In this document: one piece after another, positions 29,244 to 30,083 of the stretch | Layout of the letters: every line of letters begins with the position of its first letter | Position numbering within the stretch: position 1 is the stretch's first letter | Origin: Haloarcula vallismortis ATCC 29715 | GTDB taxonomy: Archaea; Halobacteriota; Halobacteria; Halobacteriales; Haloarculaceae | Length of the DNA stretch: 64,000 bases | Assembly (NCBI RefSeq): GCF_000337775.1 | Contig: NZ_AOLQ01000065.1 | Coordinates: 124,001-188,000, forward strand | Direction: 5' to 3' | Notes under the pieces: model-generated | Databases searched by the model: none | What the model was told of the DNA's origin: nothing | The model's input: the letters and a program-made list of their open reading frames with translations, nothing else | Program-made: the position numbers and the translations under genes

Positions 29244-29328
29244 GCGCGGGTTGCCGAGCCAGGCCAAAGGCGTAGCGCTTAGGACGCTATCCCGTAGGGG
29301 TCCGCCGGTTCGAATCCGGTCCCGCGCA
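29244..29328 (+). tRNA. tRNA-Leu (anticodon TAG)
   Basis: 85 bases, class II. Acceptor stem GCGCGGG pairs with CCCGCGC (29321-29327) and A is the discriminator. The anticodon stem TAGCG/CGCTA encloses the loop CTTAGGA, giving anticodon TAG (codon CTA). A long variable arm (CCC/GGG) and the T-loop TTCGAAT follow. CCA is not encoded. Its last 24 bases recur downstream. Confidence 0.93.
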
Positions 29329-29329
29329 T
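29305..29329 (+). repeat. tRNA 3'-end repeat, copy A (inside tRNA-Leu)
   Basis: The T-arm and acceptor 3' half of tRNA-Leu(TAG), from CCGGTTCGAATCC to the base after the discriminator. This 25-base segment is repeated exactly at 29416-29440, as expected of an integrase attachment site at a tRNA 3' end. Confidence 0.8.
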
Positions 29330-29415
29330 GAGCGAACGAAGTGAGCGAAGAGCAGGACCGGAGCGAACCCTGCAAGGAACGCGCAGCGAACTGTTGTGAG
29401 CGAGCATTTCTTGCT

Positions 29416-29440
29416 CCGGTTCGAATCCGGTCCCGCGCAT
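29416..29440 (+). repeat. tRNA 3'-end repeat, copy B
   Basis: Exact 25-base copy of 29305-29329, 111 bases downstream, with unrelated bases on both sides. It cannot be part of a complete tRNA because the 5' two-thirds are absent. The short spacer has purine-rich GAGCGAA-type repeats and no gene. It is best explained as a leftover attachment site after an integrated element was lost. Confidence 0.75.
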
Positions 29441-29537
29441 ATTCTGTCCGAACGACAGTGAGGACGAATAGCGGCCGGGGGGTATTCGAGCCCTGGGAGG
29501 CGCAGCGGCCGAACGAGGTGAGGCCAACCGGCTCTAT

Positions 29538-29560
29538 CCGGTTCGAGTCCGGTCCCGCGA
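29538..29560 (+). repeat. tRNA 3'-end repeat, copy C (degenerate)
   Basis: A 23-base partial copy of the same segment (CCGGTTCGAGTCC then GGTCCCGCGA), with an A to G change in the T-loop and a different end. The stretch from 29329 to 29673 around copies B and C, about 345 bases, holds no gene I can support. Confidence 0.6.
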
Positions 29561-29673
29561 GTTCTCGTTGCCAGAAGCAACTGAAGCGGGTCACCGACCA
29601 GATTCCCACAGGGCAAGAATGGCAACTGCCGCTTATAGGGTGCGTCTACGTCGGATTAGGTGAGGGACTGACG

Positions 29674-29862
29674 ATGTCAGTGTACGACCCACTCCGTGAC
29701 TCGTCTGCTCGCCCCGCAGGATCGACTCGGTTCGACTATGCGGTTGACGACGCGGACAATCCGACCGAGCTCACCGTCTTTAGCGACCAAGACGAGGAGC
29801 TCCCGACCCACTGGATTTCGGTCGACATAGACCACGCTGTCGCGCTCGACGAGATGCGGTGA
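29674..29862 (+). CDS. Small haloarchaeal protein (DUF7511-like)
   Basis: 62 aa. The C-terminal half (DNPTELTVFSDQDEELPTHWIS and VALDEMR) is a motif seen in many short haloarchaeal proteins that I associate with DUF7511; the number is from memory. CTTATAGG near 29632 could be its TATA box. It is the only credible gene between the two tRNA-Leu genes and may be cargo of a lost element. Confidence 0.7.
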   Translation: MSVYDPLRDSSARPAGSTRFDYAVDDADNPTELTVFSDQDEELPTHWISVDIDHAVALDEMR

Positions 29863-29998
29863 GCGAGGAGTGGGCTCGCTCAGGACGCGTCTATCGGTTT
29901 CTTGAGAACGGATTGGACAGCCAACGCTCTGGAAGCGTTGTGTCCGAAGTAAGTTTGCGTGGGTGCAGTCCCAAGGGAATGCACCTGCACTCTGAGAG

Positions 29999-30083
29999 TG
30001 CGTGGGACCGGATTCGAACCGGCGGACCCCTACGGGACAGCGCCCTCAACGCTGCGCCGTTGGCCTGGCTTGGCTACCCACGC
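29999..30083 (-). tRNA. tRNA-Leu (anticodon GAG)
   Basis: Read on the minus strand from 30083. Acceptor stem GCGTGGG pairs with CCCACGC, A is the discriminator, anticodon stem CAGCG/CGCTG encloses TTGAGGG, giving anticodon GAG (codon CTC). The variable arm and T-arm are almost the same as in tRNA-Leu(TAG) at 29244, and the two genes point at each other about 670 bases apart. Confidence 0.93.

Follow-up and report, generated by a model that had tools for sequence, protein, structure and literature searches.

The stable RNA RtT of E. coli, which is released from a tRNA transcript, is among the closest described counterparts of the sequences analyzed here. A second point of comparison is the integron, whose core motif is GTTRRRY and whose attC site is likened to the present units on the basis of general knowledge, and a third is integration by tyrosine recombinases, whose clean excision leaves no att copy behind. 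In the available part of PMC8371274, archaeal att sites are described as favouring the 3′ ends of tRNA genes and the att site of the haloarchaeal SNJ2 as very short; therefore length alone does not separate att sites from the tRNA tail copies described below. A further comparison is with Haloferax gibbonsii LR2-5, where "partial tRNAs" were called remnants, and a hairpin unit, an antisense stretch and a wider distribution are absent from that description in the part of the paper available (PMC7921747).

The window, by which we mean the whole 64,000-nt stretch of Haloarcula vallismortis DNA that was analyzed, contains two facing tRNA-Leu genes. tRNA-Leu(TAG) (29244..29328, + strand; ARAGORN and Rfam RF00005) ends in the approximately 21–24 nt that are copied by the units; att copies belonging to the islands discussed below match its 3′ half. 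The 25-mer CCGGTTCGAATCCGGTCCCGCGCAT at its end (29305-29329) is repeated exactly at 29416-29440, a spacing of 111, and again as an 88% copy at 29538-29562, a spacing of 122, leaving spacers of about 87–88 and 98 nt between tail copies. The opposite end is closed by tRNA-Leu(GAG) (29998..30083, − strand; ARAGORN), which faces tRNA-Leu(TAG), and the two genes form an 87-nt inverted pair that is 89% complementary. The sole plausible gene between the two tRNAs is a 62-aa ORF (29674..29862, + strand) that lies outside the unit and encodes a DUF7511 protein (PF24351, E 3.2e-8). A first-pass annotation of this DNA had reported the exact and the decayed repeat of the tRNA end, the inverted tRNA on the other strand and the small protein as the only gene left, and it proved accurate on each, with coordinates and all checked numbers of the repeats correct. 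When the whole 3.9-Mb genome was searched with the 22-nt core of the repeat at ≤2 mismatches, only four places were found, namely the ends of tRNA-Leu(TAG) and tRNA-Leu(GAG) and the two copies of the former; chance origin of the core repeats is excluded because matches are confined to the locus and the reversed 22-nt pattern gave 0 matches in the same genome. There was no tail copy behind the tRNA-Leu(GAG) of the window, while three relatives (G001, G007, G012) carry one behind theirs. An Rfam 15 scan of 28900-30300 (E≤1) returned the two tRNAs only and nothing for the units. Long antisense ORFs on the − strand (28968-29609 and 29287-29625, with RDRIRTG and GFEPA peptides) run across the tRNA and the tail copies and carry a risk of mistaken protein annotation.

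The tail copies are the last part of a unit of approximately 110–130 nt that consists of a hairpin (hairpin 1), an antisense of the T-loop, an inner hairpin (HP2) and the copy of the tRNA tail. This anatomy was found in 171 units from 77 genomes and behind 23 tRNA labels, in a detection that was partly circular, as many of the loci came from the model described below or from BLAST with the window unit. Hairpin 1 starts directly after the mature tRNA 3′ end, is often T-rich and has a GCGAAC...GTGAGC tandem-GA core. Next comes an antisense of the upstream tRNA's T-loop and 3′ T-stem, and the unit closes with a copy of the final ~21 nt of that same tRNA, ending at the discriminator base. The antisense varies with the tRNA, reading GGATTYGAACC in many Leu units and GGAGTTGAACC in Lys units (L093, L095), and units occur in tandem arrays of up to four, as behind the tRNA-Lys of genome G020. 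No earlier description of such units was found in the literature searched, mostly without subscription papers, and a prior report is possible. In a second type of tail copy, seen in the window's own genome behind tRNA-Gly(CCC) (L125) and tRNA-Arg(CCT) (L130) and in similar form at L220 and L232, a simple hairpin (GCAAACGCTCCGCGTTTGC or similar) precedes a copy that is restricted to the acceptor part.

In the window, unit 1 is made up of a hairpin-1 region (29329..29353, +; GCGAAC-GAA-GTGAGC with tandem G.A, assigned from fold and motif), a partly decayed antisense of the T-loop and 3′ T-stem, GGACCGGAGCGAACC (29355..29369, +), an inner hairpin, CTGCAAGGAACGCGCAGCGAAC...GTGAGCGAGCATTTCTTGCT (29370..29415, +; from fold and covariation), and the exact tRNA-Leu(TAG) tail copy (29416..29439, +; by sequence match). 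Unit 2 (29440..29561, +) repeats this order with a hairpin 1, a diverged antisense, an inner hairpin and a decayed tail copy at 29538-29561. The covariance model R1 matches unit 1 at 29355-29439 with E 6.0e-22, unit 1 being one of the 27 units from which the model was built, and matches unit 2, which lay outside the model, at 29478-29561 with E 1.4e-5. In fold predictions 7 of 9 units had z ≤ −3.0, the others being a Lys unit (−2.66) and unit 2 of the window, at only −0.66. On a strict 11-mer test the antisense of unit 1 scored at best 7/11, a level that shuffles also reach, owing to a small change in its middle; its flanks still pair in the predicted fold. The window's own units, partly decayed as they are, may be non-functional.

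Base pairing within the unit was assessed from 27 units of the main type, after 30 of 57 loosely aligned units had been dropped; RNAalifold on the loose 57-unit alignment returned 9 pairs only, because several inner-hairpin types were mixed in it. Among the 27 units 96.8% of cells were paired, against 89.5% after shuffling, and the covariation score was 0.221, compared with 0.097 for shuffled alignments (0/500) and ≤0.065 for slid controls. Changes on both sides were seen in 46 cells, a kind of count that related sequences inflate, and one of the five measures, further pair types, was not above shuffles (17 vs 15.4; 79/500). The T-loop pair alone showed 24 two-sided changes in the looser 57-unit set. 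In the model of the 27 units the copied T-loop pairs with the antisense and the arms covary. For a t-element, a tRNA-like element processed by tRNase Z that would need a T-arm hairpin, the copies give a mixed picture: the 5′ T-stem is changed in the Lys, Gly and Asp copies and kept in many Leu copies.

Units are distributed across nearly all of the haloarchaea sampled. A family search with the 88-nt spacer of the first copy gave a match in 87 of 146 genomes at E≤0.001, many of the matches being short. Twenty matches were picked, and ARAGORN found a tRNA directly upstream in 18 of them, not only Leu but also Lys, Gly, Asp and Leu(TAA); a tRNA-Lys in L097 and a displaced half of tRNA-Leu in L106 were identified by visual inspection. 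After 17 of these 18 tRNAs a copy of the own tail follows at ≤3/23 mismatches, and at L104 it does so at 5/24. With no more than 11 candidates scored in each genome, R1 (85 positions and 24 pairs) matched 380 of the 391 class-draw genomes (all of the same order or closer) and 83 of 86 genera; under fuller scoring, 13 Haloarcula genomes had from 9 to 31 matches each at E≤0.01. In the phylum draw of 294 genomes, the 51 with a match were all haloarchaea (51 of the 53 listed), and R1 had no match among the other 241, of which 18 were listed as same phylum and 223 were unlisted genomes of unspecified kinship. Of 40 hand-picked phylum-draw matches, 37 had a same-strand tRNA in front of them, and 35 of these 37 ended in the tail of that tRNA (≤4/20 mismatches), and for the top class-draw loci the figures were 28 of 29 and 28 of 28 at the same threshold, with 29 of the 30 top loci used (L190 was skipped) and many of them holding model-building units. 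Combined, 65 of 69 lay behind a tRNA, located 26–235 nt upstream and representing 21 isoacceptors, and 63 of 65 had a matching tail. As to the four exceptions, L215 follows a tRNA-like sequence that may be read as a tRNA-Trp with an intron, L230 follows a partly masked tRNA-Gly, L173 (the same place as L106) follows a displaced tRNA-Leu 3′ half, and L241 has only a tail-like sequence upstream.

When tRNAs rather than units were sampled, a close tail copy was found behind only about a fifth to a quarter of these haloarchaeal tRNA genes. The criterion was a repeat of the own 20-nt tail within 320 nt downstream at ≤3/20 mismatches. In the window's own genome this was the case for 9 of 42 single tRNA genes, compared with 0/42 upstream and 1/1604 for the tails of other tRNAs, and in four other haloarchaea, sampled as the 30 best-scoring tRNAs and not as a random draw, for 8/30, compared with 0/30 upstream and 0/710 for other tRNAs' tails. 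An antisense of ≥9/11 was present in 11 of these 17 tail-copy cases, against 40 of 3400 shuffles. In the own genome tRNA-Gln(CTG), which was outside the list of tRNAs searched, is followed by a good unit and by another that has decayed. Among 30 tRNAs from four genomes within the phylum but outside the order, 2 had a downstream copy and 1 an upstream copy, and cross-matches numbered 6/722. The tail-copy cases among these 30 non-haloarchaeal tRNAs are not hairpin units: L323 and L319 are neighbouring complete tRNA-Gly genes. At L326 (1540-1740; G454, a non-haloarchaeon) the 3′ part of a tRNA-Ala(CGC) and some of the DNA downstream of it are repeated 119 nt on, again with no hairpin unit, in what looks like a duplication of the att type. 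Tail copies at ≤3 mismatches are absent from a cluster of 25 tRNA genes in the own genome (C4:254165-257733; L171). This cluster spans 3.6 kb and has unusual sequences, several TGCAA T-loops and many isoacceptors, and it is perhaps part of a provirus or other element.

The locus is in addition a site of integration, as the first-pass annotation had proposed. In a comparison of 32 Haloarcula genomes, the own included, the facing tRNA pair and both flanks are kept in 14 of the 31 relatives, and rather than the same spacing everywhere with no variable DNA, the interval between the tRNAs varies, from some hundreds of bases up to 14 kb, and islands are present. The interval measures 13.7 kb in G008 and 5.8 kb in G028, each with a 364-aa integrase gene starting 47 nt behind tRNA-Leu(TAG). 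The G008 protein is a tyrosine integrase (PF00589), and relatives in G028, G003 (split over two ORFs) and G026 are 93.7%, 93.4% and 94.5% identical to it. Integrases of the islands, of the virus HCTV-6 and of a Halomicrobium plasmid are 40–52% identical, and each of the latter two lies beside a matching, putative attP. In HCTV-6 (L069) this is a 58-nt match of 84.5% (4001-4058) in front of the integrase gene, which may be read as the tRNA-Leu(GAG) version from its anticodon loop and is a candidate attP; in the Halomicrobium urmianum plasmid it is a 55-nt match of 92.7% that precedes that integrase and was judged on inspection to be the TAG version. An integrase family with a tRNA-Leu att site, which the first-pass annotation had proposed to search for, does exist. 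The HCTV-6 match suggests that HCTV-6-like viruses may integrate at tRNA-Leu(GAG), and viruses of the HF1 group are described as integrating likewise, at tRNA-Thr (in the available part of PMC7230728). The same type of 58-nt match was observed in HSTV-2, HRTV-2, HRTV-7, HRTV-11 and HCTV-15, the neighbouring gene having been examined in HCTV-6 only.

The earlier suggestion that the tail copies themselves were left by successive integration and loss of such integrase-driven elements is another matter. The att copies span the anticodon loop to the 3′ end of the tRNA (52 nt in G008 and L106, 92% in G020) and measure approximately 50–58 nt in G008, G020, L106, HCTV-6 and Halomicrobium, whereas unit tails measure approximately 21–24 nt. 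Only in G028 is the att copy about 25 nt, and apart from this case the repeat differs in length from the att core of the known integrase at tRNA-Leu(TAG). The window has no integrase between its tail copies, where the spacers are too short; the islands of G008 and G028 do have one. In G008 the attR of the island is directly followed by a unit, so that a 52-nt att copy and a unit adjoin as separate things, which places the insertion of the island between tRNA and unit. Against this, in G003 the integrase gene lies behind the tail copy of a unit and not behind the tRNA, and in G149, from another family (L189), the first ~175 aa of a relative of the integrase lie 57 nt behind a unit tail; unit tails may be used as attB in these two genomes, or the units may have been inserted later. 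These two cases, with the integrase islands at tRNA-Leu(TAG), are what speaks for integration scars. The units, however, have a covarying spacer in common behind many different tRNAs, each with a tail matched to its own tRNA and a covarying antisense, which largely refutes this reading, and clean excision would in any case leave no copy. We consider it distinctly unlikely. The tRNA serves integrase islands as attB, and in the reading preferred below the islands form a layer separate from the units.

In a tblastn search of the window and the collected loci with the three island-type integrases (E≤1e-4), matches were confined to L011, L031, L036, L039, L046, L069, L070 and L189, and no dedicated integrase was found next to unit arrays. 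A plasmid or virus carrying the unit itself was not found: in viral contigs an exact pattern of the tail and another of the inner hairpin had no match and, with 58 plasmid records matched, the 20 matches listed extended over 22–27 nt only, one of them being the Halomicrobium att.

Inversion of the segment between the facing tRNAs, which the first-pass annotation had thought possible, was not seen. DNA of the DUF7511 region aligns in all 14 relatives with the facing pair (the protein was found in G003, G008 and G020) and has the same orientation in every one, and a flip was rejected on this ground. In the 17 other relatives the tRNA-Leu flanks were hundreds of kb apart on one contig in 13, on different contigs in 3 and represented by one flank only in 1. 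It seems that rearrangement with breakpoints at tRNA 3′ ends has occurred within the genus.

Related species differ by the presence or absence of whole units. The last unit is identical in G001 and G007, and so is the flank over the part compared, but G001 carries an additional whole unit beside the tRNA. G031 and G004 have chimeric units whose hairpin 1 and HP2 belong to different types, the junction lying at the antisense. The data on exchange of units between tRNAs are mixed. The nearest inner hairpin in another genome had the same tRNA label in 27 of 91 cases (permuted mean 17.6, maximum 29) and the nearest hairpin 1 in 38 of 91 (permuted maximum 28), a weak tie by nearest neighbour, while in 54 of 80 comparisons for the inner hairpin and in 64 of 80 for hairpin 1 the unit of the same tRNA in another genome was closer than that of a different tRNA in the same genome.

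An alternative explanation for these patterns could be that tRNA 3′ ends undergo tandem duplication and gene conversion passively, producing arrays that have no function. Differing unit counts between species fit this, as does the deletion between short direct repeats of 4–20 bp described for Haloquadratum walsbyi (in the available part of PMC3119063). It leaves unexplained the compensatory base-pair changes, the strand bias considered below and the presence of units in 380 of 391 genomes, and its chance of being correct is small. A further possibility is that units are cassettes mobile at the DNA level, in which antisense, inner hairpin and tail would form a folded recombination site similar to an integron attC, acted on by a resident tyrosine recombinase with the T-loop of the tRNA as its platform. 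Gain and loss of whole units, chimeras joined at the antisense, inner-hairpin types weakly tied to the tRNA and tandem arrays of up to four units would all be expected of such cassettes. The detected units are, however, too short for genes and have no recombinase linked to them, the T-loop sequence GTTCRAN does not fit the integron core, and units of the same tRNA in another genome are usually the closer ones. This explanation is unlikely in our estimation, and the folding data also point away from it toward RNA.

Of 142 units, 111 have a hairpin 1 that folds better on the tRNA strand than on the opposite strand, and in 30 it folds worse there (p 2e-12, without a shuffle control); for HP2 the corresponding counts are 106 versus 56 of 165 (p 4e-6), with no bias in shuffled HP2 (76 vs 87). 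Among 109 distinct antisense/tail helices the non-Watson-Crick cells comprised 62 G.U and 31 A.C, while G-T pairs in predicted HP2 folds showed no excess on the sense strand (236/4426 sense vs 291/4444 antisense). Strand bias and the excess of G.U lend moderate support to the view that selection has acted on an RNA, so far as predicted folds can indicate. Shuffling the antisense in predicted folds of 102 first units gave lower pairing of the native tail in 26 and higher in 7, and higher pairing of the copied tail in 39 and lower in 20, a small effect which hints that the antisense may insulate the native tail from the copy. In the same model the acceptor 5′ strand pairs at 0.85 with the copied tail and at 0.08 with the native tail, absolute values that are untrustworthy, and this preference for the copy is probably a product of an energy model that rewards extra multiloop branches. 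Competition between the two pairings in predicted folds is what would be expected if the spare tail competed for the acceptor strand of the tRNA and so controlled its maturation, as in a riboswitch. There is no ligand, unit number differs between near relatives and the energy model is probably biased toward the alternative pairing, and such a device seems to us highly improbable.

The explanation that we prefer, with confidence that is evenly balanced, is that tail copies are the ends of structured trailer cassettes, or tRNA-tail hairpin cassettes, exchanged at the repeated tail. We infer that the unit would be transcribed as the 3′ trailer of its tRNA and would fold as an RNA. Arrays could lengthen, shorten and trade modules through recombination at the repeated tail, deletion mediated by repeats or integrases. 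A crossover would place the copied tail onto the tRNA, and we propose that selection would keep the copy exact because of this, as a spare tail. By tying the copy into a hairpin, the antisense could make it a weaker competitor of the real tail for pairing in the acceptor stem.

A structured element that copies tRNA tails in 83 of 86 haloarchaeal genera, and that has no match in Rfam 15 in the window, has several implications. If it acts as an RNA, it would represent a new layer of tRNA 3′-end biology in organisms that are tractable in the laboratory. If it is instead a recombination device, it would be a novel type of cassette system, one that might partly account for the insertions that gather at haloarchaeal tRNA 3′ ends. 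For annotation, "partial tRNAs" behind haloarchaeal tRNAs are not necessarily provirus scars.

Compared with the att sites of archaeal tyrosine recombinases, the units have in common that copies of the 3′ part of a tRNA lie behind its gene, with the same tRNA-Leu genes as targets. The att sites bound islands, mostly start at the anticodon loop and come with an integrase, whereas the haloarchaeal units are approximately 110 nt long and gene-less and have a covarying spacer. Like integron attC sites and cassette arrays, units are in tandem and have junction sequences that pair with an antisense around a variable hairpin, but they are without genes, are not linked to an integron integrase, have another core and have junctions specific to the tRNA. 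It is very improbable, though conceivable, that the units make up an integron-like, gene-less cassette system at the tRNA genes of nearly all haloarchaea, in which the T-loop would be the platform and the recombination site a folded single strand formed by antisense, inner hairpin and tail, with cassettes doubling as trailer RNAs that act on the upstream tRNA. The tyrTV/rttR (RtT) locus of E. coli (NC_000913 tyrV-rttR) resembles the units in that the trailer of its operon contains repeated copies of a tRNA 3′ end and, in the region of these repeats, an annotated small RNA. It differs in its 178-nt period, in a 19-nt tail that includes CCA and in having no antisense to the T-arm (best 8/11), the comparison covering one operon and one tRNA.
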